From positions 1,736,001 through 1,800,000 of the forward strand of contig NZ_CP039543.1 in NCBI RefSeq assembly GCF_013085545.1: 64,000 nucleotides of DNA, in the 5' to 3' direction. Under the pieces are notes generated by a model. It was not told the DNA's origin, made no database searches, and worked only from the letters and a program-made list of their open reading frames with translations. This document shows, one piece after another, positions 4,280-52,145 of this stretch (position 1 is the first letter of the stretch; each line of letters begins with the position of its first letter). The translations under genes and the position numbers were made by a program. This DNA is from Oceanidesulfovibrio marinus. GTDB taxonomy: Bacteria; Desulfobacterota; Desulfovibrionia; Desulfovibrionales; Desulfovibrionaceae.

Positions 4280-5493
4280 TGTGAACTGAGATGGATATAA
4301 CCTGACACCTGGGCCACCAAAAGGTTGTGGTCATGCCGTCCCTGGCTGGGTATCGATGGAGTTGCGAAGCTTCACGAACCCTTTCGAGGAGAACGCCATG
4401 ACCACGAAACGCAAAGTAGCACGAAGGAAGATGAGTCTGCTAGAGCTGGCCACTGAATTGGGCAACGTCAGCAAAGCGTGCAAAATCATGGGCTATTGCA
4501 GGCAGCAGTTCTACGAGATCCGGCGCAACTACCAGACCTTCGGCGCCGAAGGTCTATTGGACCGCCTGCCCGGGCCGCGAGGCCCGCACCCCAACCGCGT
4601 CGACGAGGCTGTCGAGCAGGCAATCCTCGACTACTGCCTGGACCACCCCACGTACGGGCCGCTCCGCGTCGCCCAACAGCTTGTCCTGCAGGGCGTTCAG
4701 GTCAGCTCCGGCGGCGTCCGCGGCGTCTGGAGCCGGCACGGCTTGCTCACCCGACACGAGCGACTGCTACGGCTGGAGAAGAGCGTGCGGGCGCAGCGCC
4801 TCGAACTCTCGGACGAGCAAATCCGTGTCCTGGAGCGCTTCAGTCCCGAGTTTCGTGACCGGCACATCGAGACGCGCCACACCGGCGATCTCGTGGCCGT
4901 GGACACCTTCTTTGTGGGCACGCTCAAGGGGGTCGGACGCGTGTATTTGCAGTCGGTTATCGATTGTCATAGCCGCTACGCCTGGGGCCGGCTCTACACC
5001 ACCAAGCTGCCAGTGACCGCGGTCCACGTGCTCAACGAGGACGTGCTGCCGTTCTTCGAGGAGCACGGCGCGCGCATTTCGACGATTCTCTCGGACAACG
5101 GTCGCGAGTTCTGCGGTCGCCCGGACAAGCATCCGTACGAATTGTTCTTGCAATTAGAAGGGATTGAGCATCGCACGACGCAGGTACGCAGGCCGCAGAG
5201 CAACGGCTTTGTGGAGCGGTTGCATCGGACATTGCTCGACGAGCATTTCCGCATCAAGGGCCGCGAGAAGTGGTACGAATCGGTGGAGGAAATGCAAGAG
5301 GATCTGGACAGTTACCTGAACCACTACAACCGGGAACGCACCCACCAGGGTCGCGGCATGGACGGCCGAGTGCCCTACCAAGCGTTCCTGGATGGCATCG
5401 TAACCGGCGAGGCAGAGGCAGAAGTAATCGAAGAAGCAGCGTAACCATCACCCCGCCAGGGGCGGAGTGTCAGGTGAATACTATCTCTGTACA
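4280..5493 (+). mobile_element. IS481-like insertion sequence, 1214 bp, with target duplication
   Basis: The element is bounded by imperfect terminal inverted repeats beginning TGT and ending ACA. The left end (TGTGAACTGAGATGG, then ACCTGACAC) matches the reverse complement of the right end (TGTACAGAGATAG, then ACCTGACAC). The pentamer CTCCG directly flanks both ends (4275-4279 and 5494-5498), the expected target-site duplication. It contains one DDE transposase reading frame and no passenger gene. The intact ends, duplication and open frame suggest a fairly recent insertion. Confidence 0.85.
4398..5444 (+). CDS. IS481-family DDE transposase
   Basis: Transposase of 348 residues. An N-terminal helix-turn-helix region (LLELATELGNVSKACKIMG) suits recognition of the element ends. 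The rve-type catalytic core carries the triad D169 (AVDTFF), D233 (LSDNGREF) and E273 (GFVERLHR), followed by the YNRERTHQG segment common in this family. The frame is open from 4356, but ATG 4398 has a GAGGAG ribosome binding site about 7 bases upstream and starts the lysine/arginine-rich DNA-binding end, so I prefer it. No frameshift or stop is visible, so it is probably functional. It is the only gene inside the IS. Confidence 0.92.
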   Translation: MTTKRKVARRKMSLLELATELGNVSKACKIMGYCRQQFYEIRRNYQTFGAEGLLDRLPGPRGPHPNRVDEAVEQAILDYCLDHPTYGPLRVAQQLVLQGVQVSSGGVRGVWSRHGLLTRHERLLRLEKSVRAQRLELSDEQIRVLERFSPEFRDRHIETRHTGDLVAVDTFFVGTLKGVGRVYLQSVIDCHSRYAWGRLYTTKLPVTAVHVLNEDVLPFFEEHGARISTILSDNGREFCGRPDKHPYELFLQLEGIEHRTTQVRRPQSNGFVERLHRTLLDEHFRIKGREKWYESVEEMQEDLDSYLNHYNRERTHQGRGMDGRVPYQAFLDGIVTGEAEAEVIEEAA

Positions 5494-5511
5494 CTCCGTG
5501 CTATGCCGGCC

Positions 5512-6039
5512 TCATTGCAGCAGCGTTGCTATTCTCTGCTTGAACTCAGGCGTTGGAATCTCACTTCGTCGCATACATGCACTATTCAACAAGGGTCCTT
5601 TTCCACTAGTCGCCTGCATTACTTTTATCTGAACCAATTTTTCAATGTACTCTATGCGCGCTGTACGGAAAGGCTCTTGCTCTCCATGCCTCAACATAAA
5701 TGGAATCTCGATAAAAAGCAGATCATTCTTTGTTATTTGATATTTTTTTGATCCGAACTTATCAAGCTGTTCTAAAACTCTTTGGCATGTCCTTCCCCCG
5801 CTATGTCCTGACTTTCTGCTTGTAGCTGATTTATAAAATGCTCTGATTCTAACTCGTAACGCTCTGTTCGTCATTCCAACATAGCATGTTCGTTTATATG
5901 AAAATTTCTCTCCTTCCGACCCCAGAAAAGTTATTACATAGACGCCTGGGAAATCAGAACAATACGCTATATTTTCATATGTGAGAGGCTGCCACCTCTC
6001 CTCCCTAAGATTCTCTAGGATATTATCATACATTCCCAC
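5512..6039 (-). CDS. GIY-YIG-like nuclease domain protein (AT-rich islet)
   Basis: Product of 175 residues with an apparent GIY-YIG fold signature: PGVYVITF at about residues 31-38, then CYVGMTNRALRVRIRAFY about 20 residues later, where the second half of the motif and the catalytic arginine are expected. A basic patch (KSATSRKSGHSGG) follows. The domain is known from homing endonucleases, UvrC and some restriction or retroelement nucleases; which role applies here is unknown. The gene and its flanks (about 5500-6280) are visibly richer in A/T than everything around them, and the IS481 copy sits 14 bases beyond its stop. Together these suggest recent acquisition. No partner gene is evident. 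Confidence 0.6.
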   Translation of the reverse strand: MGMYDNILENLREERWQPLTYENIAYCSDFPGVYVITFLGSEGEKFSYKRTCYVGMTNRALRVRIRAFYKSATSRKSGHSGGRTCQRVLEQLDKFGSKKYQITKNDLLFIEIPFMLRHGEQEPFRTARIEYIEKLVQIKVMQATSGKGPLLNSACMRRSEIPTPEFKQRIATLLQ

Positions 6040-6284: not shown

Positions 6285-6752
6285 ATGCGGATAGTGGCGC
6301 AACGAGTGAAGGAGGCCCGGGTGGATGTGGCCGGCGAGACGGTCGGCCGTATCGACACGGGCATTTTGGCCCTGGTGGGTTTCGGCGCCGGCGACGGTCC
6401 GGAGCTGCCAGGCTCCAAGGCGTGGCGCGCGCTGCTGTCCAGGCTGCTCACCCTGCGCATCTTTCCTGACGATCAAGGCAGGTTCAATCTCGGCCTGGGC
6501 GACGTGGAAGGCGGGCTGCTGCTCGTCTCCCAGTTCACCCTGTATGCGGACTGCCGCAAGGGCCGCCGGCCGTCCTTTACGGGAGCGGCTGCGCCGGAGC
6601 TGGCCGCGGCCCTGTTCGAGCGCTTCGTGCAGGATGCGACCGCGGCGTATCCCGGCCAGGTGGAGCAAGGCGTGTTTGCCGCGAACATGGACGTTTCCCT
6701 GGTCAACTGGGGACCGGTGACCATAACACTCGATGGTGCGGATTTCGCATGA
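6285..6752 (+). CDS. dtd: D-aminoacyl-tRNA deacylase
   Basis: Hydrolyses D-amino acids mischarged on tRNA, a cytoplasmic quality-control step. The 155-residue product matches Dtd along its length: MRIVAQRVKEARV at the start, the SQFTLYADCRKGRRPSF block around residues 83-99 (catalytic loop) and the NWGPVTI motif near the C-terminus, where the family's GP dipeptide excludes L-aminoacyl substrates. It follows the AT-rich islet; base composition returns to the local norm at its start. Its stop overlaps the next start (ATGA at 6749), so it heads the signalling/motility operon, although functionally it is housekeeping. Confidence 0.95.
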   Translation: MRIVAQRVKEARVDVAGETVGRIDTGILALVGFGAGDGPELPGSKAWRALLSRLLTLRIFPDDQGRFNLGLGDVEGGLLLVSQFTLYADCRKGRRPSFTGAAAPELAAALFERFVQDATAAYPGQVEQGVFAANMDVSLVNWGPVTITLDGADFA

Positions 6753-7906
6753 CAACCAACGCCATGCAGCAAAACGTCCGGATTCTGATCGTCGATGATT
6801 CCAGGACGATGCGCCAAGCCCTGGAGACCATCCTTGCCGAGCGGTACGAGGTGCGCACCGCCCGGGACGGCCGTCACGCTCTGGAGGTTCTGGACTCCTT
6901 CGCTCCCAATATTCTGCTGCTGGACATCATCATGCCGCGGCTCGACGGCTTCGGCGTCATCGAGCATATCCGCCGTGTCCGTCGCGACGAACAGACCTTC
7001 ATCATCATGCTCACGGCCGAGAGCGCCCAAGACATCAAGCCCAAGGCGCTCAACCTGGGGGCAAACGACTTTCTGCTCAAGCCATTCGACCAGGTGGAGC
7101 TGCTGGCGCGCATCGGCGTGGCCGCCAGACAGGTGCGCCTTACGCAAGAGCTGCACCACTCCATGGAGCGCATCAGCCGCGAGATAGAGACGGTGGCCGC
7201 CTTGCAGACGCGGCTGTTGCCCAAGGAGAGCCCCTATCTGGAGAAGGTGCAGCTACAGAGCCTCTACCGCCCTTCCGGCCAGGCCAGCGGCGACTACTTC
7301 GACTACGCCGTGCTGAACGACGACGTGCTGCGGGTGGCCATTGCGGACGTCTCCGGCCATGGCGCCCGCGCCGCGTTCCTCATGGCCATCGTGCGCACTC
7401 TCTTCAAGCTCTCGCTGGAACACGACCTGAGCATTGAAGAGACCATGCGCACCATCAACAGTCAGCTTGTGGACATCATCGGCGACGAGGCCGACTTCGT
7501 GACAGCCTTCGCCGCCGACCTGAATCTGAAAAAAAGCACGCTTTCCTACATCAACGCCGGCCACTGCCCGGGGCTGCTGCACACGGCCGGCGGGACCAAT
7601 GTCCAGTTGAACTCCACCCACCCGCTGCTGGGCTTCTTCCCCATAGATTTCGGATGCCGGACCCTGCCTTTCTCGGAGGAGTACTCTCTTTTTCTCTTCA
7701 CCGACGGCTTTTACGAGTGGGAGCGCAAGCCCGGCGTATTCTTCGAGCTCGACGACTTCCTGGAGCTCGCGGAGGGGCTCATGCCCACAAAAGAATCATT
7801 CCTGGAGAACCTCATCGCCAGCCTCAAGGCAGCCGGCGGCAAGCTGCCGGTATTCCGTGACGATCTCACGGCGCTTTGGGTGCATCGTGGAGAAGCCGAT
7901 GGCTGA
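6749..7906 (+). CDS. receiver-domain PP2C-type phosphatase (RsbU-like response regulator)
   Basis: Two-domain signalling protein of 385 residues. The receiver domain (about 10-130) has the acidic pair D16-D17, phospho-acceptor D59 (LLLDIIMPRLDG), T89 and K111. A short coiled linker leads to a SpoIIE/PP2C phosphatase (about 185-385) with the metal-binding SGDYFDY and ADVSGHGARAAFLMA motifs and FTDGFYEW near the end. In partner-switching systems such proteins dephosphorylate a STAS antagonist so that it can bind an RsbW-like kinase. Both partners are encoded directly downstream with overlapping genes, which strongly supports that role. No histidine kinase for the receiver is present in the window. 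Confidence 0.93.
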   Translation: MTTNAMQQNVRILIVDDSRTMRQALETILAERYEVRTARDGRHALEVLDSFAPNILLLDIIMPRLDGFGVIEHIRRVRRDEQTFIIMLTAESAQDIKPKALNLGANDFLLKPFDQVELLARIGVAARQVRLTQELHHSMERISREIETVAALQTRLLPKESPYLEKVQLQSLYRPSGQASGDYFDYAVLNDDVLRVAIADVSGHGARAAFLMAIVRTLFKLSLEHDLSIEETMRTINSQLVDIIGDEADFVTAFAADLNLKKSTLSYINAGHCPGLLHTAGGTNVQLNSTHPLLGFFPIDFGCRTLPFSEEYSLFLFTDGFYEWERKPGVFFELDDFLELAEGLMPTKESFLENLIASLKAAGGKLPVFRDDLTALWVHRGEADG

Positions 7907-8369
7907 CGACCTGCGTACCTTTGATGAGAGCAAGCAGCACTATGTTCTGCGAACCCAGGCAAGCCCGGCCGCGAGCAGGCGCCTGGCCAAAGCGGTTCTG
8001 ACCATACTGAACGACGCGATCACCGATCACGATCTGATGTACAACATCGATCTCAGCCTGTCCGAGGCGTGCGCCAATGTGGTCCGCCACGCCTACGCCA
8101 AGGAGCCCTTCTCCAGCAAGCAGCAGATAGAGATCGACCTCACGCTTTACGAGGGCCGGACCATCGAGATCGAGATATCGGATTGGGGCTGCGGCTTTCC
8201 TGAATTTCCTGTGGATATAAAGAATGCGAGCCCGGAGGCCGAAGGAGGACGTGGGCTCTTCATCATGTCGGAGCTGGCCGACGAGTTCGAGCTCCGGCGC
8301 AACGGCGACCGCAACAGCGTGTATCTCAAGATGCGCGTCGAGGAGAACCGATGGAACCCTTCCGGATAA
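7899..8369 (+). CDS. RsbW-like serine kinase / anti-sigma factor (GHKL ATPase)
   Basis: Small 156-residue GHKL ATPase. The N-box lies in DLSLSEACANVVRHAY, with the Mg-binding E and N positions. The G1 region is SDWGCGFP and the glycine-rich lid EAEGGRGLFIMSELAD. This is the architecture of RsbW/SpoIIAB switch kinases, which phosphorylate a STAS protein and sequester a target such as a sigma factor. The ATG at 7899 overlaps the phosphatase stop by 8 bases and has GTGGAG just upstream; the longer frame from 7857 would lie inside the upstream gene. The regulated target is not identifiable. No sigma-factor gene is nearby, while the next genes encode motility functions. Confidence 0.9.
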   Translation: MADDLRTFDESKQHYVLRTQASPAASRRLAKAVLTILNDAITDHDLMYNIDLSLSEACANVVRHAYAKEPFSSKQQIEIDLTLYEGRTIEIEISDWGCGFPEFPVDIKNASPEAEGGRGLFIMSELADEFELRRNGDRNSVYLKMRVEENRWNPSG

Positions 8370-8695
8370 CCAGTGACGGGCCCCTGGTTCGCGTGGAGAT
8401 TCATGGAGAGTTCAGTCTCGAGTTTACCGATATGCTCAAGCGGCAGCTTGAGCCGTGGCTCGATTCGAAATCCTGCCAGGCCGTGGCCATAGACCTCTCG
8501 GAGACCACGTTCATGGACAGCTCCGGCATAGGCTTCCTCGTGGCCAAGGCCTCACGCCTTCGCTCCGAAGGCAAGGCGTTCTACCTGCTCAAACCCAGCC
8601 CCAAGGTTCGCCGCATCCTCTCCCTGGTCAAGCTGGAACGTTTCTTCACGAGCCTGGACAACGACGAGGAGCTCGACAAGCTCCTGCCGCACTAG
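8351..8695 (+). CDS. STAS-domain anti-sigma factor antagonist (RsbV/SpoIIAA-like)
   Basis: Single STAS domain of 114 residues. The phosphorylation loop reads TTFMDSSGIGFLVAKA, with the conserved D-S-S-G in which serine is the kinase target and phosphatase substrate. It overlaps the end of the kinase gene by 19 bases, so phosphatase, kinase and antagonist form one translationally coupled module. The unphosphorylated form is expected to bind the upstream RsbW-like protein and free its client. A flagellar or envelope client would fit the motAB genes downstream but cannot be shown from sequence. Confidence 0.92.
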   Translation: MEPFRITSDGPLVRVEIHGEFSLEFTDMLKRQLEPWLDSKSCQAVAIDLSETTFMDSSGIGFLVAKASRLRSEGKAFYLLKPSPKVRRILSLVKLERFFTSLDNDEELDKLLPH

Positions 8696-8722
8696 ACAAC
8701 CTACGAGCCAGGAGCGGACCCC

Positions 8723-9844
8723 ATGCCCTACTACATCCGCCATCATTTCGACCCACATTTCGATTATCACCGTCTGTGCCCCCGCGAACGCCTGGACGGC
8801 GGCGTGGACCACTATGACCTGGGCTATGTCCAGAACGTGAAGCAGGACCAGCTTCTTGCCGAGATCGTGGATCTGGACGAGGCCGGATCTGATATCGAGC
8901 AGCGGTTCGTTGTTGACGAGCCCGTCCTGCCAGCCGGAGAGAACACCAAGCTTGATCCGGAAAATCCACGCCGGCTCCTGGCCGCCGTGAACGGCTACGT
9001 ATTCTGCGATAATGGCCATATCCATGTCCACGACATCCTTAACGTTCGCCGCGACGTGGACTTCCATACCGGCAATATCAACTTCCTTGGCGACATGATC
9101 GTGCATGGCGCAGTGCGTACAGGCTTCTCCCTCAAAGCACGTAATATCAAGGTGTTGGACATTATCGGCGGCGCCGACCTCACAGCCCACGGATCAATAC
9201 TTGCGCAAGGCGGCATCAAAGGGCAAAAGAAGGCGTCCCTTACAGCACAGAAGGATATGCGTGTCGCCTTTTGCGAAAACGCCCAGCTTACGGCCGGGCG
9301 GCATATTCGGGTGGACGGCTCGGCCATGCATTGCCAGCTTTCAGCCAGCGGCAATATCCTGGTCGATGGTCGGCTGCAGGGCGGCAGAGTCGTTACCGGC
9401 CGTATCCTATTCGTGCGCGAAATCCTCGGCGGCGGCGTAGGAACCACGACCAGTCTCGTGCTCGGACAGGACCCGCGTCACCTCATCGAGCTGGAAATGA
9501 TCGAGGAAGAGTTGCTGGATATTGAAGAACGCATGGAATACTACGGCGAACAAATCACATTCGGCCCTGCCCTGCACAGCGAATACAGCGCCAAAATCGC
9601 GCGGACGCAGCGCAGGAAGAAGCTTCTGGAGCAACGACGCGACAGCCTCATTGAAATCCTGGACAATCCCCCGGCCAATCCCGATGCGCACCAGATCATC
9701 GTGGAAGGAGAAATCCGCCCCGGAGTCATGGTGACGATGGGCAAGGAAAGCATGTTCATAGACGAGATCCGCGGTCCGGCGCGAATCCGCCTCGATGCGG
9801 AAGGCCGCCTGGCCATCTTCGATTACATACCAGCCAAATCGTAG
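8723..9844 (+). CDS. FapA/DUF342 family protein
   Basis: Protein of 373 residues. The central part (about 70-235) has the repeated G/D-rich beta-helical pattern of FapA/DUF342 proteins (GDMIVHGAV, GGADLTAHGSILAQGG, GRHIRVDGSAM, GNILVDGRLQGG). A helical coiled segment follows (EMIEEELLDIEERMEYYG), then a C-terminal EGEIRPGVMVTMG region. FapA-type proteins are linked to polar flagellar assembly or polymer scaffolds. Its place between a partner-switching module and motAB agrees with an envelope or flagellar role. The start has a CCAGGAG site about 8 bases upstream. The molecular function is unknown. Confidence 0.8.
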   Translation: MPYYIRHHFDPHFDYHRLCPRERLDGGVDHYDLGYVQNVKQDQLLAEIVDLDEAGSDIEQRFVVDEPVLPAGENTKLDPENPRRLLAAVNGYVFCDNGHIHVHDILNVRRDVDFHTGNINFLGDMIVHGAVRTGFSLKARNIKVLDIIGGADLTAHGSILAQGGIKGQKKASLTAQKDMRVAFCENAQLTAGRHIRVDGSAMHCQLSASGNILVDGRLQGGRVVTGRILFVREILGGGVGTTTSLVLGQDPRHLIELEMIEEELLDIEERMEYYGEQITFGPALHSEYSAKIARTQRRKKLLEQRRDSLIEILDNPPANPDAHQIIVEGEIRPGVMVTMGKESMFIDEIRGPARIRLDAEGRLAIFDYIPAKS

Positions 9845-9852
9845 TCTTACTC

Positions 9853-10605
9853 ATGGATATCGCAACTCTTATCGGCCTTATCGGGGCGATGGGCCTCATT
9901 GCCGGCGCCATCTTTATGGGCGGCGGCGTCGGCGGCTTCATCGACATGCCTTCGGTGCTCATCGTCATCGGCGGCACCTTTGCCGTCACCTTTGTCATGT
10001 TCCCCCTCAAAACGGTCTTGAGCTCCTTCAAGGTCGCCATGAAAACCTTCCTCGGCTCCTCCCCGGACCCCAAGCAGAACATCTCGCAGTTGGTCAGCCT
10101 GGCGGAAACTGCGCGCAAGGAAAGCCTCGTCGCCCTGGAAAAGGTCTCTCTCGACGACCCTTTCATGGCCCGCGGCGTCCTGCTTGTGGCCGACGGCACC
10201 GACGAGACCTTGGTCCGCTCCATCATGGAGTCCGAGATCCAGTCCATGATCAAACGGCACCGCACCGGCCAGAACGTGTTCAAGGGCATGGGGACGTTCT
10301 CCCCGGCCTTCGGCATGATCGGCACGCTCATCGGCCTGGTGCGCATGCTCCAGAACCTCGACGATCCTTCCTCCATCGGCCCGGCCATGGCCGTCGCCCT
10401 GCTCACGACGTTCTACGGCGCCGTGCTCGCCAACGTCTTCTTCCTGCCCATGGCCAACAAGCTGGCCGAGCGCTCCCAGGAGGAAGCCCACTATATGGAG
10501 ATCACCACAGAGGGTGTGCTCTCCATCCTTAATGGCGAACACCCCAACATCCTCAAGGAAAAGCTCGCATCCTACCTCGCGCCCAACCAGCGCGAGTCGT
10601 CCTAG
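9853..10605 (+). CDS. motA: flagellar motor stator protein MotA
   Basis: Ion-channel half of the flagellar stator, in the inner membrane. The 250-residue product has the four-span MotA/PomA layout: two spans near the N-terminus (IATLIGLIGAMGLIAGAIFM; VLIVIGGTFAVTFVMF), a large cytoplasmic loop, then GTFSPAFGMIGTLIGLVRML and VALLTTFYGAVLANVFFLPM. The charged cytoplasmic loop that contacts FliG lies between spans 2 and 3. It precedes motB by 12 bases, so the two are cotranscribed. Whether H+ or Na+ is the coupling ion cannot be told with confidence. Confidence 0.95.
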   Translation: MDIATLIGLIGAMGLIAGAIFMGGGVGGFIDMPSVLIVIGGTFAVTFVMFPLKTVLSSFKVAMKTFLGSSPDPKQNISQLVSLAETARKESLVALEKVSLDDPFMARGVLLVADGTDETLVRSIMESEIQSMIKRHRTGQNVFKGMGTFSPAFGMIGTLIGLVRMLQNLDDPSSIGPAMAVALLTTFYGAVLANVFFLPMANKLAERSQEEAHYMEITTEGVLSILNGEHPNILKEKLASYLAPNQRESS

Positions 10606-10617
10606 GGGAAATCGGCC

Positions 10618-11376
10618 ATGCCACGGAAGAAAGAGGCTCCACCACCACCGCCTCCGAAAAAGAACGACGAGCCGCCTGTCGAGGAAGGTCTGCCCATATG
10701 GATGGCGACCTTCGCCGACATGATGAGCCTGCTCCTCTGCTTTTTCATCCTGCTGCTCTCCTTCGCCCAGCAGGACATCTCCAAGTTCAAGACGCTCATG
10801 GGCTCCATCAAGGAGGCCTTCGGCGTCCAGGTGGAGCGCAAGGAAGCATCCTACGCCGCGTTTTCCCCCTCCAAGTTCGAGCGTAAGGATGTGGAGCTGG
10901 AGAAGGACGAAAAGGCCCTGCTCAGCATGGTCCTGCAAATGAAGTCCATCACCAGCGAGCTGAAGATTGAAGACAGCATGAAGATCACCACCGAGGACGA
11001 CGGCGTCATCGTGCGCATTCCCAACGACGACATCTTCAAGCAAGGCTCGGTGGAGTTCAAACCCGGTGCGGACAAGTACTTCGAGTCCGTGGTGAGCCTG
11101 CTCAAGGACCACAACTTCGACGTCGTGGTCCGCGGCAACACGGACGACTCTCCGGCACCGGGCAATCTCTATCCCTCCAACTGGGAGCTCTCCTCGGCGC
11201 GGGCCGCTGCGGCGCTTCGCAAGCTCATGCAGATGGGCGACATCTCCGCCGGCCGGCTCAAGGCCGTGGGCTACGCCGACACCCTGCCCCTCTTGCCCAA
11301 CACCACCGCCGAGAACCGCCAGGCCAACAACCGTTTGGAGTTCTTCTTCCACAAGCCGGATGAACGTAGCTGGTAG
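10618..11376 (+). CDS. motB: flagellar motor stator protein MotB
   Basis: Partner of MotA that anchors the stator to peptidoglycan. The 252-residue product has a proline/lysine-rich cytoplasmic N-terminus, one membrane span at about residues 27-47 (IWMATFADMMSLLLCFFILL) and the ion-binding aspartate D34. A periplasmic linker leads to an OmpA-like peptidoglycan-binding domain (VVRGNTDDSPAPG, NWELSSARAAA, NRQANNRLEFFF). The run of seven prolines at residues 8-14 is a small peculiarity. It sits immediately after motA. Confidence 0.95.
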   Translation: MPRKKEAPPPPPPKKNDEPPVEEGLPIWMATFADMMSLLLCFFILLLSFAQQDISKFKTLMGSIKEAFGVQVERKEASYAAFSPSKFERKDVELEKDEKALLSMVLQMKSITSELKIEDSMKITTEDDGVIVRIPNDDIFKQGSVEFKPGADKYFESVVSLLKDHNFDVVVRGNTDDSPAPGNLYPSNWELSSARAAAALRKLMQMGDISAGRLKAVGYADTLPLLPNTTAENRQANNRLEFFFHKPDERSW

Positions 11377-13155
<1,779 letters not shown>

Positions 13156-14863: not shown

Positions 14864-14879
14864 TGGCACGGCTCTTGTT
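14864..14879 (+). promoter_or_regulatory. sigma-54-type promoter of fliK-flgD-flgE
   Basis: TGGCAC-N5-TTGTT matches the -24/-12 consensus (TGGCAC-N5-TTGCW) at all but one position. Transcription would begin near 14890, between the promoter and the ATG at 14905. This argues against the upstream in-frame ATG at 14788 and fits middle-class flagellar gene control by a sigma-54 activator. Confidence 0.7.
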
Positions 14880-14904: not shown

Positions 14905-16848
14905 ATGCAGATTTTTCCCGAATATGCAGAGAGAGCCGAGCAGGCCATGAACGCCCTGGGCAAGAGCGCGTCCCAGTCCTACAGCAACGGATACGCCTCA
15001 TCGTCCCAGCCCTTCGCCGACCTGCTCGACACCCTTGCATCCGCTGACAGCGCGGCCCGCAGCACGGCCCAGAGTACGGCGGATACCCTATACGACACCG
15101 GCCGCCGTGCGACCGAATCATATGCCTCACAGACCGCCTCTTCCCCGGACGACTCCCTGGAAGACAGCGCAGCGGGACTCCTGGTCAGTCAGGAAGATTT
15201 TGCCGATCTGCGCGGCGATCTGGAAAAATACGGCCTGGACAGCGACGACATCGACGCTCTGGAAGAGCAGGTCAACAGCCCGGAGGGCATGACCTGGCGC
15301 GAGCTGATGAACAAGGTGAGCACGCTGGCCGCGCAGCACGTCGAGGGCGGCCAGAGCCTGGACGTGGAGACCAAGCGGCTGCTCACCGGCTTCCTGGGCC
15401 GCATTGGCTGCAATATCACGGAGACAAAGGACATCATTGCCGACCTGGACGAGAGCAAGCTGGACGCCGCATGGCAGAAGATAGCGTCCAAGCTCGCCAC
15501 CCTTTCTCCCACCGATCAGATCACGGTCTCCCGCGACGAGGTCAAGGCCCTGGCCAGGGCCTTCAACGTGCCTGGCACCAACGACGCCTCCCTGTCCGCA
15601 TTCTTTGCCGGCGGCGGCAAGCTGACCATGAACGCGGCCGGATTGCAGAACCTCGTGTTCATGCTCAAGCAGGCCTCGGGCACGCAGAGCTCGGAAGCGT
15701 TGGAAAATGCAGCCGAAAGCCTCAAGTCCATCCACGAGAAGCTCCAGGACGCCATCAGCAACGCCATGGATCGGGCCAAGCGGGAAGAGCTGGCCGACAA
15801 CAAGGAGACCAAGAGCGTCTCCCAGGCCAAGGTCCGCATCAAGAAGGCCGCGGAAGAGAACTACGGCGAGGCCGCCGGCCGCGTCTCCCGTCCGAACGGC
15901 ACGGAAGCCGAACAAAGTGACACGGACCACTTCTTCAAGAAGCCCGTGATGGAAAACTCTGCCGACGCCGGCAAGACCGCCGATGCCAAAGACGCCGCCG
16001 CAAAGGACGCCAAGGACGGCGATCTGAAGGCCGCCGCGGTCAACAACACCAAGGATGGGGCCGACGAGCTGGCCGAGACCAAGAAGGCCGCCGACGCAGC
16101 CACCGACCGCTTCGCCAAGAACCGCGCCGAGAACGCCGCAGTGGCCCAGGACAAGGCCGCCGGCCAGGGCAAGGACAATGCCGGGGGCGGAGGCTCAGAC
16201 GGCTCCAGCGACCGTGGCGAAAATGGTTGGTCCGCGTTCTGGAACAAGGTCTCCAAGGGCGAAGCCACGGCCGACACGACCAAGAATTTCTACTCTGTCG
16301 CGGATACTGCAGCCCAGGCCGAGGCTCGCGCAACCAGCGCGACACAGCGCGCCGACCAGGCGCTGGGCCGCCAGGGTTCCCTGCCGCGCCAGACCCTGCG
16401 CAGCCTGGAGCAGGCGTTCATGAAGAATCTGGGCCAGGGACAGCGGCAGCTGACCTTGCGCCTCGATCCGCCGCAGATGGGCCGCGTGCAGGTGATGCTT
16501 ACGGTGCGGAACAACGAGGTTTCCGCCGTGCTGCGCACCGAGAAGCACGAGACCGGCCAGATGCTGGCCGAGCAGATGCAGCATCTCCGGCACAGCCTGG
16601 AGCAACAGGGTCTCAAGGTGCAGAAGCTCGACGTGCAGACGCAGCTCAACAACGACATGAACTCCCAAGGCTGGCTGGGCATGGACCAGCACAACTCGGC
16701 TCAGGAGCAGAACGCCCGGCAGCAGGCCATTCACGCCTGGAAACAAATGGGCGGCCGCGGCTCGGATGCCGCATCATTGGCCCACGATGTGCAGAATGGG
16801 AATGTGCAGGAACTAATTTCCCAGGGCGGACTGCACCTGATCGCATAA
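14905..16848 (+). CDS. fliK: flagellar hook-length control protein
   Basis: Secreted ruler that sets hook length and switches export specificity. The 647-residue product has a low-complexity Ala/Lys/Asp-rich middle (about residues 345-480) and the FliK C-terminal domain at about 505-590 (GQRQLTLRLDPPQMGRVQVMLTVRNNEVSAVL), followed by a Gln-rich helix. The frame is open from 14788, but ATG 14905 has GAGGAG upstream and lies just after a sigma-54-type promoter, so I start there. It is followed at 31 bases by flgD and then flgE, a classical hook operon. Confidence 0.92.
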   Translation: MQIFPEYAERAEQAMNALGKSASQSYSNGYASSSQPFADLLDTLASADSAARSTAQSTADTLYDTGRRATESYASQTASSPDDSLEDSAAGLLVSQEDFADLRGDLEKYGLDSDDIDALEEQVNSPEGMTWRELMNKVSTLAAQHVEGGQSLDVETKRLLTGFLGRIGCNITETKDIIADLDESKLDAAWQKIASKLATLSPTDQITVSRDEVKALARAFNVPGTNDASLSAFFAGGGKLTMNAAGLQNLVFMLKQASGTQSSEALENAAESLKSIHEKLQDAISNAMDRAKREELADNKETKSVSQAKVRIKKAAEENYGEAAGRVSRPNGTEAEQSDTDHFFKKPVMENSADAGKTADAKDAAAKDAKDGDLKAAAVNNTKDGADELAETKKAADAATDRFAKNRAENAAVAQDKAAGQGKDNAGGGGSDGSSDRGENGWSAFWNKVSKGEATADTTKNFYSVADTAAQAEARATSATQRADQALGRQGSLPRQTLRSLEQAFMKNLGQGQRQLTLRLDPPQMGRVQVMLTVRNNEVSAVLRTEKHETGQMLAEQMQHLRHSLEQQGLKVQKLDVQTQLNNDMNSQGWLGMDQHNSAQEQNARQQAIHAWKQMGGRGSDAASLAHDVQNGNVQELISQGGLHLIA

Positions 16849-16879
16849 CGCGATCCTCCGCCCCGCAAGGAGACATACC

Positions 16880-17677
16880 ATGGCCGTCGTGAACACTAAT
16901 GAAATCCTGGGCCTTACCAGCTCGTACGGCGCCGCACGCGACCCGAACGAACCGGTCGGCAAATCTGACCTGGACAAAGAGGATTTTCTCACCCTGCTCG
17001 TTGTCCAGCTGCAGAACCAGGACCCCCTGAACCCGATGGAAGACACCCAGTTCACCTCGCAGCTCGCCGAGTTCTCCAGTCTGGAGCAGTTGACCAACAT
17101 CAACAAAGGCGTCGAGTCTCTCAACGGTGGTTCCGAGCGGACAGACATGGTCACGGCCGTGAACTTCATCGGCAAGCAGGTGCGCGCCACAGGCGACGTG
17201 GTCGGCAAGACCAACGACGGCGTCTCCACGCTCTACTTCGAGCTCGAAGAGCCCATCGCCCACGGCTTCATCAATATTTTCGACTCGGCTGGCGGCATCG
17301 TGAACACCATCCGGCTCAACGCGATGCAGGAAGGCAGCTACGAGATCACCTGGAACGGTGAGGATTACGACGGCAACGAAGCGCCCAATGGCGTGTACCA
17401 GATTGCCATGGCCTGCGAAGATCACAACGGCCAGCCCGTACTGGTGGACACCGACGTAAGCGGTACGGTCGTCGGCATCCAAAAGGAAAACGGCGAGTTC
17501 TATATGCGTCTGGCTGACGGCCGTATGGTCGACTTCACTTCCATCAAGGAAGTGGTCAACCCCACTACCCCGGCAGACACTACGGACGAAGGAAACAACA
17601 CAGGCGATGGCGACACGACGGAAGAAGATGGCGCCACCGACGAGGAAGAAGATTCCGGGTCCGACTCCTCCGCATAG
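16880..17677 (+). CDS. flgD: flagellar hook-capping scaffold protein
   Basis: Cap for hook assembly, removed after completion and exported through the flagellar secretion system. The 265-residue product has the conserved N-terminal region (DFLTLLVVQLQNQDPLNPMEDTQFTSQLAEFSSLEQL, read across residues 35-72) and a FlgD Ig-like/Tudor body (VNTIRLNAMQEGSYEITWNG, DGNEAPNGVYQI). The last 35 residues are an unusual acidic tail of Asp, Glu, Thr and Ser not needed for the fold. An AAGGAG site precedes the ATG. It lies between fliK and flgE. Confidence 0.95.
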   Translation: MAVVNTNEILGLTSSYGAARDPNEPVGKSDLDKEDFLTLLVVQLQNQDPLNPMEDTQFTSQLAEFSSLEQLTNINKGVESLNGGSERTDMVTAVNFIGKQVRATGDVVGKTNDGVSTLYFELEEPIAHGFINIFDSAGGIVNTIRLNAMQEGSYEITWNGEDYDGNEAPNGVYQIAMACEDHNGQPVLVDTDVSGTVVGIQKENGEFYMRLADGRMVDFTSIKEVVNPTTPADTTDEGNNTGDGDTTEEDGATDEEEDSGSDSSA

Positions 17678-17750
17678 GCGGTAGATCCGGACAACATACG
17701 TACCTTATGCGCCGCCCAGACGCGGCAGCATTCACGCAAGGAGGCCTGAT

Positions 17751-19448
17751 ATGAGTTTGTCAGCATCGATGTGGACCGGAGTCTCCGGACTGCTCGCCCA
17801 CGGTGAACGAATGAATGTGCTCGGCAACAACATCGCCAACACAAACACCGTCGGTTTCAAGGCGTCGCGCATGCACTTCGCCGATTTCATCAGCCAGGAC
17901 GTCGGCACCACCGGCGACTACCAGGCCCAGGTCGGACGCGGTGTCAGCGTCCACGCCATATACGGCGATTTCAGCCAGGGCGCTTTCGAAACCACCAACG
18001 AGGCCACGGACCTGGCCATCGGCGGCAAGGGCTTCTTTGGCGTCTCGCCCAAGGGCTCCGAAGACCGCTATTACACCCGCGCCGGCAACTTCCGTTTCGA
18101 TAAGGACGGCTACCTGATCGATCCCAACGGCTTTGTCGTGCAGGGCTGGCAGCTTGAGTCCCAGCCCACCACGCCGGCCCAGGAGGTCACCCGCTCCTCC
18201 GACCAGATCGGCCTGGAGCAGGTCAACCGCATCGGCTCCATCGGTGATATCCGCATCGGCGCCGGCGGCGTGGCCCAGCCCCAGCACACCAACAACATCA
18301 CCATGATCACCCAGCTGGACAAGGACAACGGCGGCGACAACTCCCAGTCCGTCAGCGATGCCAACCCGTTCTTCGCCCTGGCCGGGGCCTGGGACGGCAC
18401 TCAGGACGAGCCGCTCTCGCCGCAGCAGTACGCCTACCAGTCCACCCTCAAGGTCTACGATGAAGGCGGCACGGCCCACGACATCACCATCTACTACGAC
18501 CAGGTGAGCACCTCCAACGTGGGCGACACCAATGTCTGGGAATACATCGTGACCATGGACCCGGACGAGGACAAGCGCTTCCTGGGCGGCAACGCGGTGG
18601 AAGGCGAGGCCAAGGGCCTGCTGATGATGGGCACCCTGACCTTCAACTCCGCGAACCAGATGACCGACATGTCCGCCTACACCATCGTTTCGAACGCGGA
18701 CTTTTCTGCCGGCTCCAACTCGACGCTGGACTTGAACGAGTGGTATCCTACCCAGATATCCAACAACGGGTACCCCATCTTCTCCGCAAACTTCACCGGC
18801 CTGTCCAACGCCAGCGCCGTGCTGGACAGCAGCGGCGACTTCATCAAGCCGCCCATGGAGAACGCACAAGGCAAGCTCATCGAGCTCAACCTGGGCCTGC
18901 GCACTACGCCCAACGGCGACTGGGACTACGGCAGCGACGGCAGGACCTCGGCCGCGGGCATCGGCAACACGCCGGACGTGCTCGACCGCATGCCCGGCTT
19001 CGGCACCGACGCCACCCGGAACGCCTCGGCCACCACGAGCTACGATGCCTCGTCGGCCACGCTTTTCCAATCCCAGGACGGCTATACCTTCGGATTCCTG
19101 CAGTCCATCAACGTCACCCAGGACGGCATCCTGCAGGGCCGCTACTCCAACGGCGTCACCCTGGAGCTCTTCCAGGTCGCGCTCTTCGACTTCGCCAGCC
19201 AGGTGGGTATGCGGCGCGAGGGCAACAACCTGTTCTCCGAAACGCGGGAATCGCCCCTGACGAGCTCGCAGCCGCCCAACACGGCCGGGCTCGGCACCAT
19301 CTCGTCCAACTCGCTGGAGCAATCCAACGTGGACCTGGCCAGGGAGTTCGTGGACATGATCGCCACGCAGCGAGGCTTCTCGGCCAACGGCAAGGTCATC
19401 ACCACCACGGACCAGATGCTTTCCGAAGTCATCATGCTCAAGCGCTAA
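17751..19448 (+). CDS. flgE: flagellar hook protein
   Basis: Subunit of the extracellular hook. The product is 565 residues, longer than the about 400 of enteric FlgE but common in this lineage. The N-terminal rod/hook signature is MWTGVSGLLAHGERMNVLGNNIANTNTVGFK (residues about 5-35, given here with its key ANT-N-GFK core), and the C-terminal one is SNVDLAREFVDMIATQRGFSANGKVITTTDQML, which forms the D0 coiled coil. The extra length is in the central outer domains (about 150-430). A strong AAGGAGG precedes the start. A terminator follows, closing the fliK-flgD-flgE operon. Confidence 0.96.
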   Translation: MSLSASMWTGVSGLLAHGERMNVLGNNIANTNTVGFKASRMHFADFISQDVGTTGDYQAQVGRGVSVHAIYGDFSQGAFETTNEATDLAIGGKGFFGVSPKGSEDRYYTRAGNFRFDKDGYLIDPNGFVVQGWQLESQPTTPAQEVTRSSDQIGLEQVNRIGSIGDIRIGAGGVAQPQHTNNITMITQLDKDNGGDNSQSVSDANPFFALAGAWDGTQDEPLSPQQYAYQSTLKVYDEGGTAHDITIYYDQVSTSNVGDTNVWEYIVTMDPDEDKRFLGGNAVEGEAKGLLMMGTLTFNSANQMTDMSAYTIVSNADFSAGSNSTLDLNEWYPTQISNNGYPIFSANFTGLSNASAVLDSSGDFIKPPMENAQGKLIELNLGLRTTPNGDWDYGSDGRTSAAGIGNTPDVLDRMPGFGTDATRNASATTSYDASSATLFQSQDGYTFGFLQSINVTQDGILQGRYSNGVTLELFQVALFDFASQVGMRREGNNLFSETRESPLTSSQPPNTAGLGTISSNSLEQSNVDLAREFVDMIATQRGFSANGKVITTTDQMLSEVIMLKR

Positions 19449-47806: not shown

Positions 47807-48208
47807 ATGAAACGACCCGTCATCAACCTGTACAAATATCTTCTCACCTTTCTCGGACTTGCCTTTGTATACTGGGGCGGCAAGGTCATTATCGTCACGA
47901 AGTATTACAGCAAGCGGTATGATCTGATCATGGACCATACAAACGTTCGCTGGCCGTTGGGGCTCGCACTTCTTGCGTTTGGCGTCTTCTTCCTCTACAG
48001 AGCGTACAAGGAATCAAGCAAGCGTAATACATCGTCAACACAGCTGGCTGAGACCGAAACGATCTGTGTTGCCTGCCAAACTCCATGCCTCATCGACGAC
48101 TTTGAAGAGATGACGTGCCCCCACTGCGGCGGCGAACTCGAACCGCTGGCCGGATTCTACGAGCGCCATCCGGAGCTGCTGGACGAGGATACCGAGCCTG
48201 GGCACTAG
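47807..48208 (+). CDS. two-span membrane protein with zinc ribbon, type alpha (putative immunity)
   Basis: Product of 133 residues: spans at about 10-30 and 49-66, a short loop between them with MDHTNVRWPLG, a basic Ser-rich linker, then a zinc-ribbon-like cysteine cluster (CVACQTPC...CPHCGG, about 87-108) and a conserved tail (GFYERHPELLDEDTEPGH). It is coupled to the preceding gene by a 3-base gap, as immunity genes are to toxins. A near-identical copy ends the array at 51655. Loop motif D-[FYH]-[ST]-[NK] and tail are shared with the beta and gamma types; the membrane halves differ. Function is inferred from arrangement. Confidence 0.6.
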   Translation: MKRPVINLYKYLLTFLGLAFVYWGGKVIIVTKYYSKRYDLIMDHTNVRWPLGLALLAFGVFFLYRAYKESSKRNTSSTQLAETETICVACQTPCLIDDFEEMTCPHCGGELEPLAGFYERHPELLDEDTEPGH

Positions 48209-48334
48209 CCTTCCATGACAACACTATGGACTTCATATCCTCAGCCACCCAAAAGGCACACCTGCGCCGTCGCTCTCTGGGGACGCTGGAGGCCTTGCAG
48301 GCTATCTACATGATAACATCATAGCCGACGACAC

Positions 48335-48529
48335 ATAAAACTATCCATAATATTGTGTGGAGTATTTTCTCTAATCTTTGGGATAAGCATTCTACAGAAA
48401 CCAGTATACTACAATAGCATTTGGACATATACTATCGATTTCACAAACACACGCTGGATTCTTGGCCCCCTCTGCATTGTTGTCGGCGCCCTCTTAATCT
48501 GGACAGAGGTCAGGAAACGACGCAAATAG
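48335..48529 (+). pseudogene. 64-codon two-span membrane ORF, copy S1, start codon lost
   Basis: Nearly identical to the intact copy at 50447-50641, but the ATG is ATA here (CACATAAAACTATCC). The rest of the frame is open to TAG 48529. No alternative start is apparent, so it is probably not translated. Confidence 0.65.
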
Positions 48530-48887
48530 CGTCGTAACGCACTGGGGAGAGACGAGCCAGGCGATCGGCGAGGTGCGCAACCATCCAATCGCCGGGCCGC
48601 TACTGGACTCGGCCATCGCCATCGAGGGGCTGGCGCTTGGGTACGTGGCGGTGCCGCTTATTGACAGCGCATTGTCCACAGCGGAAAGAGCGCTTGCTAT
48701 GAACGCGCCAATATTGCCAAAGGTTGTGGACTTCGTCTCAGGCATGCTGCCTGGGATGCCTGAGAATGAATGGCAACAGTGGGGCTACCTTGCAACCGAG
48801 GGCGTGAAATATCTTGAAGATACCAGAAGCGCCCTCCTGCATGATCAAATTTACTACGATCCAGACGAGTATAATGATGCTATTTAG
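48498..48887 (+). pseudogene. orphan C-terminal toxin-like fragment T1 (beta type)
   Basis: Open frame without a convincing start: the preceding in-frame stop is TAA at 48495, and the first GTG (48573) has no ribosome binding site at proper distance. The sequence reads HWGETSQAIGEVRNHPIAGP, then a hydrophobic/amphipathic stretch, PKVVDFVSGMLPGMPENEWQ and a tail ending YYDPDEYNDAI. It aligns with the head protein from its second helical repeat (WGEMAEGTNQAISEV), so it is a displaced alternative C-terminus. It could only be expressed after recombination with the head gene. Confidence 0.6.
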
Positions 48888-48909
48888 CCTGCCTCTAATG
48901 GGAGAATAG

Positions 48910-49263
48910 ATGAGCTTGCTTATCTCATTTATCATTTTATTCATTGGCATCATGATCTTCTGCAATCCTGAATGGTACAATGATTATCGTGGAATATTCT
49001 ATGACTTCTCAAACCTCAGGATATTGGCCTCCTCAACTTTTGTCATTGTTGGGCTGATAGGGATCGTCACTTCTTTCCGCGCCCTAAATCGAGATTCCCA
49101 AAAAAACGAGATGATGATTTGCCCTGAATGCCAGCAAACGATTACCGCCTACACGGCTCAGAACGGCCGCTGTCCGCAGTGCGGCGGCGAACTCGAACCG
49201 CTGGACGGATTCTACGAGCGCCATCCAGAGCTGCTGGACGAGGATACCGAGCCTGGGCACTAG
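48910..49263 (+). CDS. two-span membrane protein with zinc ribbon, type beta (putative immunity)
   Basis: Product of 117 residues: spans at about 2-18 and 38-56, loop motif FYDFSNLRI, zinc ribbon CPECQQTIT...CPQCGG at about 71-92 and the shared tail GFYERHPELLDEDTEPGH. GGGAGA precedes the ATG. It follows toxin-like fragment T1 by 22 bases. A copy at 51021 differs at only a few residues. The two-span plus cytoplasmic ribbon design would suit protection against a membrane-active toxin; this is inference. Confidence 0.6.
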   Translation: MSLLISFIILFIGIMIFCNPEWYNDYRGIFYDFSNLRILASSTFVIVGLIGIVTSFRALNRDSQKNEMMICPECQQTITAYTAQNGRCPQCGGELEPLDGFYERHPELLDEDTEPGH

Positions 49264-49389
49264 CCTTCCATGACAACACTATGGACTTCATATCCTCAGC
49301 CACCCAAAAGGCACACCTGCGCCGTCGCTCTCTGGGGACGCTGGAGGCCTTGCAGGCTATCTACATGATAACATCATAGACGACGACAC

Positions 49390-49584
49390 ATAAAACTATC
49401 CATAATATTGTGTGGAGTATTTTCTCTAATCTTTGAGATAAGCATTCTACAGAAACCAGTATACTACAACAGCATTTGGACATATACTGTCGATTTCACA
49501 AACACACGCTGGATTCTTGGCCCCCTCTGCATTGTTGTCGGCGCCCTCTTAATCTGGACAGAGGTCAGGAAACGACGCAAATAG
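49390..49584 (+). pseudogene. 64-codon two-span membrane ORF, copy S2, start codon lost
   Basis: Same ATG-to-ATA change as copy S1, otherwise open to TAG 49584. A few substitutions distinguish it from the intact copy at 50447. Confidence 0.65.
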
Positions 49585-49588
49585 CGTC

Positions 49589-49944
49589 GTAACGCACTGG
49601 GGAGAGACGAGCCAGGCGATCGGCGAGGGGCGCAACCATCCACAATCGCCGGGCCGCTACTGGACTCGGCCATCGCCATCGAGGGGCTGGCGCTTGGGTA
49701 CGTGGCGGCGCCGCTTATTGGCAGCGCATTGTCCACAGCGGAAGGCGCGATCGCATCGAGTGCTCCAATTCTGCCGGATGTTGTTGATTTCACGTCCGGC
49801 ATGTTGCCGGGAATGCCGGATAACCCCATGCAACTGTATGGCAGTCGTTTCAGTGAAGGGATTAAGTGGTTAGAGTCTTGGAGAAAGGAGTTGGAAAAGA
49901 ACCAAGTCTACTACAACAAAGAGGATTATGACGATGCAATATAG
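49589..49944 (+). pseudogene. orphan C-terminal toxin-like fragment T2 (gamma type), frameshifted
   Basis: Starts like T1 (WGETSQAIGE), but two extra bases (CCACAATCGCC against CCAATCGCC near 49640) break the frame. The last 80 codons are open (from GTG 49702) and read PDVVDFTSGMLPGMPDNPMQ, then a gamma-specific tail ending YYNKEDYDDAI. It overlaps the start of the following membrane gene by 17 bases, so toxin-like end and membrane gene were inherited as a pair. Confidence 0.6.
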
Positions 49945-50320
49945 CATCATGCCGATAAAAAGCTGGCATGTCCTGCTCGGTTCGCTCGCTGTCCTCTCAC
50001 TGGGAGTCGAGATACTTATAGACCCAACATGGTTCGACTCGACTCGTGGTGTCTATTTTGACTACTCAAAATGGCAATACCCGTTATCATGCTTGATGAT
50101 TGCTGTGGGCCTTGCAGGCACAATTGCCTCTCTTGTGTCCATGAACAGAAAAGATCGTTGGGACGAGATGATGATTTGCTCCACGTGTGAGCAAACGATC
50201 ATCGCCTACAAGGCTCAGGACGGCCGCTGCCCCCACTGCGGCGGCGAGCTCGAACCGCTGGACGGCTTCTACGAGCGCCACCCGGAGCTGCGGGACGAGG
50301 ATGCCGAGCCTGGGCACTAG
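49928..50320 (+). CDS. two-span membrane protein with zinc ribbon, type gamma (putative immunity)
   Basis: Product of 130 residues: spans at about 13-31 and 51-70, loop motif YFDYSKWQYP, zinc ribbon CSTCEQTIIAY...CPHCGG (84-105) and the shared tail ending DEDAEPGH. The membrane half is unlike the alpha and beta types, while ribbon and tail are nearly the same. It overlaps toxin-like fragment T2 by 17 bases; ATG 49934 or 49949 are alternative starts. Confidence 0.6.
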   Translation: MTMQYSIMPIKSWHVLLGSLAVLSLGVEILIDPTWFDSTRGVYFDYSKWQYPLSCLMIAVGLAGTIASLVSMNRKDRWDEMMICSTCEQTIIAYKAQDGRCPHCGGELEPLDGFYERHPELRDEDAEPGH

Positions 50321-50446
50321 CCTTCCATGACAACACTATGGACGTCATATCCTCAGCCACCCAAAAGGCACACCTGCGCCGTCGCTCTCTGGGGACGCTG
50401 GAGGCCTTGCAGGCTATCTACATGATAACATCATAGACGACGACAC

Positions 50447-50641
50447 ATGAAACTATCCATAATATTGTGTGGAGTATTTTCTCTAATCTTTGGGATAAGC
50501 ATTCTACAGAAACCAGTATACTACAATAGCATTTGGACATATACTGTCGATTTCACAAACACACGCTGGATTCTTGGCCCCCTCTGCATTGTTGTCGGCG
50601 CCCTCTTAATCTGGACAGAGGTCAGGAAACGACGCAAATAG
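50447..50641 (+). CDS. 64-residue two-span membrane protein (intact copy S3)
   Basis: Small membrane protein with spans at about 4-20 and 41-57, a loop reading YYNSIWTYTVDFTNTRWILG, and a basic end (EVRKRRK). The loop has the same D-F-T-N motif as the zinc-ribbon proteins of the array, so this is a shortened, fourth (delta) type lacking the ribbon and tail. It is the only copy of four that still has its ATG. There is no strong ribosome binding site, so expression is uncertain. Confidence 0.5.
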   Translation: MKLSIILCGVFSLIFGISILQKPVYYNSIWTYTVDFTNTRWILGPLCIVVGALLIWTEVRKRRK

Positions 50642-50645
50642 CGTC

Positions 50646-50998
50646 GTAACGCACTGGAGAGAGACTAGCCAGGCGATCGGCGAGGTGCGCAACCATCCAA
50701 TCGCCGGGCCGCTACTGGACTCGGCCATCGCCATCGAGGGGCTGGCGCTTGGGTACGTGGCGGCGCCGCTTATTGGCAGCGCATTGTCCACAGCGAAAAG
50801 AGCGCTTGCTATGAACGCGCCAATATTGCCAAAGGTTGTGGACTTCGTGTCAGGCATGCTGCCTGGGATGCCTGAGAATGAATGGCAACAGGGGGCTACC
50901 TTGCAACCGAGGGCGTGAAATATCTTGAAGATACCAGAAGCGCCCTCCTGCATGATCAAATTTACTACGATCCAGACGAGTATAATGATGCTATTTAG
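50646..50998 (+). pseudogene. orphan C-terminal toxin-like fragment T3 (beta type), frameshifted
   Basis: Copy of T1 with a one-base deletion (CAACAGGGGGCTACC against CAACAGTGGGGCTACC near 50890), which ends the frame early. The downstream tail ending YNDAI is present but out of frame. Confidence 0.6.
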
Positions 50999-51020
50999 CC
51001 TGCCTCTAATGGGAGAATAG

Positions 51021-51374: not shown

Positions 51375-51654
51375 CCTTCCATGACAACACTATGGACTTC
51401 ATATCCTCAGCCACCCAAAAGGCACACCTGCGCCGTCGCTCTCTGGGTATGTTGAAGATGCTGCCGGCTACATGCGTCACGAGGGGAGAATAATAAAGAT
51501 ATCAGCAACTCTCGTGTGTATTACAACACGATATGGACTTATATGGTAGATGCGTAAACAGGCGTTGTGTCATAGCCCCCTCTGCAACGTAGCCGACGCC
51601 CTCTTGATCTGAACAGAAACCAAGAAGTGCCGCAAGTAGCGGCGTAATATCTCT
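51372..51654 (+). repeat. partial repeat unit 4 with decayed 64-codon ORF
   Basis: The conserved spacer is present for about 75 bases (to CTCTCTGGG) and then diverges. From about 51505 to 51640 a decayed copy of the 64-codon ORF is recognisable (TATTACAACACGATATGGAC; CGCCCTCTTGATCTGAACAG), now with stops. No toxin-like fragment remains before the last alpha gene. Confidence 0.65.
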
Positions 51655-52056: not shown

Positions 52057-52145
52057 CTCAGACGCGTCAATCCTGCGTCGCTTGCGGACGAGTCCTTACC
52101 GCGATGCTTGGCGTTTCGCCGCCGTTCGCATATAGTGCCTGCATT

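Follow-up and report, generated by a model that had tools for sequence, protein, structure and literature searches.

A three-gene partner-switching module resembling HsbR/HsbA at a flagellar locus of Oceanidesulfovibrio marinus

On what does a partner-switching module act when it is encoded beside flagellar genes and its operon carries no sigma factor gene? The question is raised by a stretch of 64,000 nucleotides from Oceanidesulfovibrio marinus (order Desulfovibrionales; NCBI RefSeq assembly GCF_013085545.1, contig NZ_CP039543.1, positions 1,736,001 to 1,800,000 of the forward strand), referred to here as the window and numbered from its first letter. The host genome is a single contig of 4.76 Mb. 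Three genes of the window encode a receiver-PP2C phosphatase (REC-PP2C), an RsbW-like kinase and a STAS antagonist. The explanation favoured here, with moderate confidence, is an HsbR/HsbA-like (RsbU-RsbW-RsbV) partner switch that is split into three genes, is usually linked to the flagellum and acts on a partner in trans, either FlgM/FliA or another regulator.

Components of the partner switch

The REC-PP2C gene (6749..7906, forward strand, like the other window genes with coordinates in this and the next section) encodes a protein of 385 amino acids in which a Response_reg domain (PF00072) is joined to a SpoIIE serine phosphatase domain (PF07228, 3.2e-35), an RsbU/HsbR-like input. It is followed by a gene for an RsbW/SpoIIAB-like anti-sigma/serine kinase of 156 amino acids (7899..8369; HATPase_c_2, PF13581) and by one for a STAS anti-sigma-factor antagonist of 114 amino acids (8351..8695; PF01740, with TIGR00377 above its cut-off) of the SpoIIAA/RsbV/HsbA-like type, which carries a DSSG motif with Ser57/58. 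Every module protein exceeded the cut-off of its main Pfam family. The best start of RsbW is ATG 7899, with a ribosome-binding-like stretch GGAGAAG; the listed frame begins at GTG 7857. An earlier, sequence-only reading of the window had these identities and coordinates right, as judged by Pfam, and had correctly described the three genes as overlapping one another (REC-PP2C/RsbW by 8 bp and RsbW/STAS by 19 bp); the dtd gene upstream overlaps REC-PP2C by a further 4 bp. Its statement that no sigma factor accompanies the module also held, since no Sigma70_r2 match was obtained in the window (0 of the six in the genome; RpoN was not searched for).

All 77 RsbW homologs have E56, N60, G97 and G117-R118-G119, and 76 of the 77 also have D95. 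Among 74 STAS homologs, 73 of which sit directly after RsbW, D56 and S57 are invariant and S58 occurs in 68, with Ala in three and Thr in three. Aspartates D182, D200, D319 and D372 of the PP2C domain, which we take to be metal-site positions, are present in 36 of 36 REC-PP2C homologs, and the phospho-acceptor D59 of the receiver in 33 of the 36. Pseudo-receiver inputs, with Gly in place of the receiver Asp and the PP2C aspartates kept, were seen in L068 (G042), L169 (G071) and L160 (G081), where L and G numbers designate loci and genomes, respectively.

An AlphaFold2 model of RsbW (predicted local distance difference test score, pLDDT, 89) gave its closest structural matches to SpoIIAB (Z 17), Bacillus subtilis RsbW (15.8) and UsfX (14-15), followed by LvrC (14.2), Rv1364c (14.0) and SiaB (12.7), with other GHKL proteins from 9.2 down. 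Several of the matched SpoIIAB, RsbW and UsfX structures are complexes with an antagonist or a sigma factor. The structural features of an RsbU/RsbW/RsbV-type module, that is, the PP2C aspartates, a GHKL kinase with N-box and G-boxes and the STAS serine, were all found. By sequence and model, all parts of a complete partner switch are present and the residues checked are intact. One arginine of SpoIIAB contacts both of its partners; R27 of RsbW, found in 75 of 77 homologs, was left as a lead for this residue, the profile alignment being one residue off. The RsbW column labelled D15 was not used, as the window protein has Val there.

Conservation of the gene neighbourhood

A search with the single RsbW protein gave matches in 33 of 59 genomes, one of which is that of the window, while an RsbW profile gave 27 loci at or above 133 bits in 26 of the 59, the next match scoring 86 bits. 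Within the order an ortholog was detected in 76 of 278 genomes (E 1e-30). This figure is a lower bound, because four named loci (L095, L098, L099 and L100) have a diverged RsbW of 25-33% identity in the corresponding position and only one of the seven genomes of group g48 (G095) passes the threshold. In a draw of 394 genomes across the phylum, given as a whole with no split between orders, four genomes matched RsbW (E 1e-25), namely that of the window and three others from its family.

Neighbourhoods were compared at 77 loci, representing 75 of the 76 ortholog genomes (the window's own being excluded) together with G027 and the additional copy found in G014. A locus was excluded from any test for which it was too short, so that n varies, and REC-PP2C matches of less than 200 amino acids, which are bare receivers, were dropped before counting. 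A gene is called absent from a locus where tblastn with the window protein gave no match at E 1e-3, by which measure diverged copies can be missed.

In the window, the module is preceded by dtd (6285..6752; D-Tyr-tRNA deacylase, PF02580, 1.7e-48), its kept upstream neighbour. Downstream lie a gene for a FapA/DUF342 protein of 373 amino acids (8723..9844; PF03961 and FapA_N), regarded here as a neighbour of the switch, the stator genes motA (9853..10605; PF01618) and motB (10618..11376; MotB_plug and OmpA), and a gene for a DUF3880/Glyco_trans_1_2 glycosyltransferase (11419..13155; Pfam). A GT9-type glycosyltransferase gene separates the latter from the hook genes fliK, flgD and flgE of the same cluster (14905..19448). 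The fliK gene was recognised by its FliK Flg_hook domain and its start taken as ATG 14905 (the listed frame begins at GTG 14788); the labels flgD and flgE are presumed from sequence and position, with no family search. The module had been described as fused by overlaps to FapA and motAB, which it is not, because gaps of 27, 8 and 12 nucleotides separate STAS, FapA, motA and motB in turn; the genes are tightly packed instead, and a further 42 nucleotides lie between motB and the glycosyltransferase gene.

Across the order, 73 of 77 loci have STAS immediately after RsbW, and 62 of 73 have dtd upstream. At 67 of 73 loci the DUF3880 glycosyltransferase gene, the most constant downstream neighbour besides STAS, follows RsbW within 4.2 kb. 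REC-PP2C was located between dtd and RsbW, or immediately before RsbW, in 36 of 75 loci, and of the 66 loci with enough flank 36 gave a match to FliK, FlgD or FlgE no farther than 12 kb away. The arrangement in the window is not due to chance, because RsbW orthologs hold the same place across the order. The gene order thus recurs at most loci for STAS, the glycosyltransferase and dtd, but FapA comes after STAS in only 36 of 73 loci and FapA-motA-motB in 35 of 73, and the full window order is kept in 16 of 69. An apparent STAS-glycosyltransferase fusion in G178 and G179 was ruled out by a stop codon between the two.

Similarity to known partner switches

HsbR, a protein with the order REC-PP2C-kinase, acts with HsbA on FlgM/FliA and RpoS in trans, as set out in PMC6482189. 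In the same account, unphosphorylated HsbA binds FlgM, by which FliA is freed, and phosphorylated HsbA binds the diguanylate cyclase HsbD (PMC6482189). The hsbA/hsbR/hptB genes of Pseudomonas are described as located in flagellar regions (PMC5085249), and a review mentions STAS-only proteins encoded in operons for motility or chemotaxis (PMC8256260). With HsbR-HsbA of Pseudomonas aeruginosa (PA3346-PA3347) the window module has in common a receiver, a PP2C phosphatase, an RsbW-like kinase, a STAS antagonist and a position in a flagellar region. It differs in comprising three genes and not two, so that the single polypeptide of HsbR is absent from the window, and in its setting between dtd and the DUF3880 glycosyltransferase and fliK-flgDE genes, with FlgM encoded far away. 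Among relatives, REC-PP2C and RsbW are fused in one open frame in 12 of the 36 loci with REC-PP2C. As these natural fusions give the HsbR domain order, a split HsbR/HsbA-like switch is favoured. Membership of the HsbR/HsbA group is not claimed, because the single polypeptide is lacking in the window and the likeness is one of domains.

CrsR-CrsA of Shewanella oneidensis shares its domain set with the window module and is proposed to follow the same logic of phosphorylation (PMC6482189). CrsR is reported there to bind RpoS (PMC6482189), whereas the six Sigma70_r2 proteins of the window's genome all fall below the RpoS cut-offs. The Bacillus systems RsbU-RsbV-RsbW/SigB and SpoIIAA-SpoIIAB/SigF share the kinase and antagonist folds and the sequence motifs, but the window operon has no Sigma70_r2 gene, its phosphatase carries a receiver domain and its proteins score under the NCBIfam equivalog cut-offs. 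RssB-RssC of Pseudomonas likewise pairs a REC-PP2C response regulator with a STAS protein. The RssB family (NF045505) is the best NCBIfam match of the window REC-PP2C, but at 96.9 bits against a cut-off of 700, and the RssC family (NF045506) gave 22.9 bits against a cut-off of 250. The best PDB sequence match of REC-PP2C is 3eq2, a 'probable two-component response regulator' that we take to be RssB/PA2798.

Splitting, fusion and loss

On the RsbW tree, a quick tree with long branches on which counts of changes are minima, the fusion state changed at least four times, REC-PP2C presence and FapA-motAB presence at least seven times each, and STAS at least once. Presence of REC-PP2C showed no obvious coupling to presence of FapA-motAB (table 21/16/15/20).

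Of the 59 relatives, 33 had no high-scoring ortholog, and 20 genomes hand-picked among these were inspected. FapA-motAB was present in eight of the 20. In G037, G034 and G002 it was followed by the glycosyltransferase gene with no module gene detected, and the other five, the genomes of family f5, carry dtd-REC-PP2C-STAS-FapA-motAB-glycosyltransferase without the kinase, the STAS protein having DSSG in all five. In G046, G054 and G058, dtd stands immediately before the glycosyltransferase gene; FapA occurs together with a weak STAS match in G009 and alone in G011. The remaining seven have the glycosyltransferase gene with none of these genes detected beside it, G048 giving a bare receiver-domain match. 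Within this one slot, switch and stator cassette thus vary separately among relatives.

Four loci, L054 (G032), L164 (G086), L167 (G087) and L170 (G085), keep an RsbW in which E56, N60 and the glycine boxes are unchanged, yet no STAS was detected directly after it, G085 giving a weak, distant STAS match only. An RsbW without an adjoining STAS must have its substrate elsewhere or another role.

Linkage to flagella and candidate targets

FliG was detected in 71 of the 76 genomes with the ortholog versus 162 of the 202 without it (Fisher p 0.006, uncorrected for kinship). Four ortholog genomes without FliG at E 1e-60 (G071, G075, G183 and G271) say little, because they are rated only 85-92% complete. 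A fifth, G036, is rated 100% complete and keeps an intact dtd-REC-PP2C-RsbW-STAS run with neither FliG nor FlgM nor an above-cut-off FliA. Strict flagellar dependence was rejected on this genome; flagellar linkage is strong but not obligate.

Several observations weigh against a flagellum-linked HsbR/HsbA-like switch. Besides G036, whose module does not fit an exclusively flagellar target because the flagellar markers are missing, these include the 162 FliG-bearing genomes without an ortholog at the threshold used, for which reason the ortholog is dispensable for flagella. No REC-PP2C precedes RsbW in 39 of 75 loci, STAS is missing after it in 4 of 77 (G032, G085, G086 and G087), and all three parts stand side by side in only 33 of 75, and RsbW is missing from the five f5 genomes that keep REC-PP2C and STAS. 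At 30 of 66 loci, 12 kb of flank gave no match to FliK, FlgD or FlgE. In G045 (L059) and G053 (L060), two genomes of family f3, both of which carry FliG, RsbW-STAS lies beside HAMP-PP2C proteins, away from dtd and the flagellar genes. Finally, no -24/-12 pattern, one mismatch being allowed, lay upstream of REC-PP2C, RsbW or STAS, or of queD, dtd, FapA, motA or motB, in the 35 to 77 loci scanned per gene, and sigma-54 control of the module is accordingly not borne out. The same scan gave the pattern upstream of FliK in 3 of 38 loci and of FliC in 9 of 32, with one hit in all on the control strand. As FlgD, FlgE and the glycosyltransferase genes also lacked it, its absence at the module is weak evidence.

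Some of these observations would suit a general switch, for example for osmotic or envelope stress, acting on a non-flagellar sigma factor or enzyme, the flagellar position being inherited gene order. In G036, genes that we label TrkH/TrkA-like from sequence, with no family search, lie on the opposite strand by the module; the f3 orthologs beside HAMP-PP2C proteins are near an MscS-type channel gene in G045 and a GH65/trehalose-phosphatase gene in G053; in G039, where RsbW-STAS comes after dtd, flagellar genes were not detected further downstream; and the dtd side (62 of 73) is nearly as constant as the glycosyltransferase side (67 of 73). The same constancy of the flagellar-side glycosyltransferase, together with FliG in 71 of 76 ortholog genomes, argues against such a switch, which is considered possible but unlikely. 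A further RsbW-STAS ortholog away from the dtd/flagellar locus was noted in L158 (G083).

The six Sigma70_r2 proteins of the genome comprise RpoD, a sigma-32/RpoH type, FliA and three extracytoplasmic function (ECF)-like proteins, and none scored above the NCBIfam cut-offs for RpoS or SigB/SigF types. The genome also encodes one clear FlgM, far from the window, and one weak FlgM-like protein. Direct anti-sigma action, by which RsbW would bind FliA (sigma-28) and STAS would release it in parallel to FlgM, is compatible with the resemblance of the RsbW model to SpoIIAB, RsbW and UsfX, which are anti-sigma factors of SigF/SigB-type sigma factors, and with FliA and the sigma-32/RpoH type being the only alternative sigma factors of the set that are not ECF-like. 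FlgM is already in the genome, however, and G036 has the module without an above-cut-off FliA, and this sequence-based proposal is judged doubtful.

It appears similarly improbable that RsbW and STAS form a portable output core, with an input phosphatase that is swapped between lineages (REC-PP2C as a separate or fused protein, HAMP-PP2C, or no phosphatase at the locus) and a target in flagellate Desulfovibrionales that is a flagellum- or surface-related protein and neither a sigma factor nor FlgM. Action on the products of the adjoining downstream genes, the stator (MotA/MotB) or FapA, is very unlikely and was rejected as the lead, since FapA-motA-motB, for all its tight spacing of 27, 8 and 12 nucleotides in the window and its presence downstream in 35 of 73 loci, is absent there in 38 of 73 (G095 having FapA alone), changes state at least seven times on the RsbW tree, shows no obvious coupling with REC-PP2C and occurs without an RsbW ortholog in 8 of the 20 genomes inspected.

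The sequence-only reading had proposed a motility or envelope target instead of a sigma factor. The conserved flagellar neighbourhood agrees with the motility part, but a special tie to motAB or FapA is not seen (35 of 73 loci). For the favoured HsbR/HsbA-like switch, a sigma-factor axis may by analogy still be reached in trans, because FliA and FlgM are in the genome and HsbR/HsbA acts on FlgM/FliA and RpoS in trans.

Other features of the genome

A sigma-54-like -24/-12 element with one mismatch in 11 is located at 14864-14878, just before the fliK start. With two mismatches allowed, the pattern was found 23 times in the whole window against 30 expected, showing no enrichment. For a sigma-28 pattern the window gave 23 matches where 17 were expected, a number equalled or exceeded in 8 of 100 shuffles, and no convincing match lay at the module.

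Two open reading frames (ORFs) lie between queD and dtd (window 4356-6039), one for an integrase-core (rve/HTH) transposase and the other with no match in Pfam. The genes queD and dtd are nearly adjacent in relatives, for example in G015, and an insertion appears to have split a conserved dnaE-queD-dtd-switch run in the window. Further downstream (47807-52057) lies a low-GC array of small ORFs with a period of about 1055 bp, in families D1-D5 with copies 68-100% alike. It follows an ORF with a CETC...NCKC motif, and several of its ORFs end in CPxCGGELEPLDGFYERHPEL-like sequence; it looks like a toxin/immunity-type repeat array.

A second partner-switch set occurs in the same genome at approximately 1714215-1718000 (L003, L074), some 18 kb upstream of the window, where a HATPase_c_2-STAS fusion of 281 amino acids is encoded near a GAF-PP2C protein. 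A second hook/flagellin locus at approximately 4300000-4319000 (L043, L072), with FlgE 38%, FlgD 38% and flagellin 73% identical, lies near a divergent ECF-like sigma factor gene.

Proposed mechanism and significance

Domain make-up, active-site residues, the order-wide neighbourhood and the natural fusions support the HsbR/HsbA-like switch at the level of sequence and structure, and from them we infer a phosphorylation cycle, a direction of signalling and a partner. A cognate histidine kinase or phosphotransfer protein would phosphorylate Asp59 of the receiver, activating the PP2C domain, which would then remove phosphate from the STAS serine. Unphosphorylated STAS would bind the RsbW-like kinase, a second partner, or both. 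With the phosphatase idle, RsbW would phosphorylate STAS using ATP and be freed for its other partner. Because flagellar linkage is strong, the output would most likely be a decision between motile and sessile states through FlgM-FliA or a cyclic di-GMP enzyme, as for HsbA.

No such Desulfovibrio locus is described in the titles and the opening parts of the abstracts of the papers listed by the literature searches, supplements and subscription papers lying outside the search. The main text of a paper on sigma-54 in D. vulgaris makes no mention of anti-sigma, STAS or motA (PMC4641369), and that of a paper on response regulators none of anti-sigma, PP2C or phosphatase (PMC3333781). If the favoured reading is true, a protein-phosphorylation switch encoded at a flagellar locus operates in sulfate reducers and would offer an entry point to their decision to swim or attach. 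The repeated splitting, fusing and partial loss of the module would represent a natural experiment on the rewiring of partner switches.

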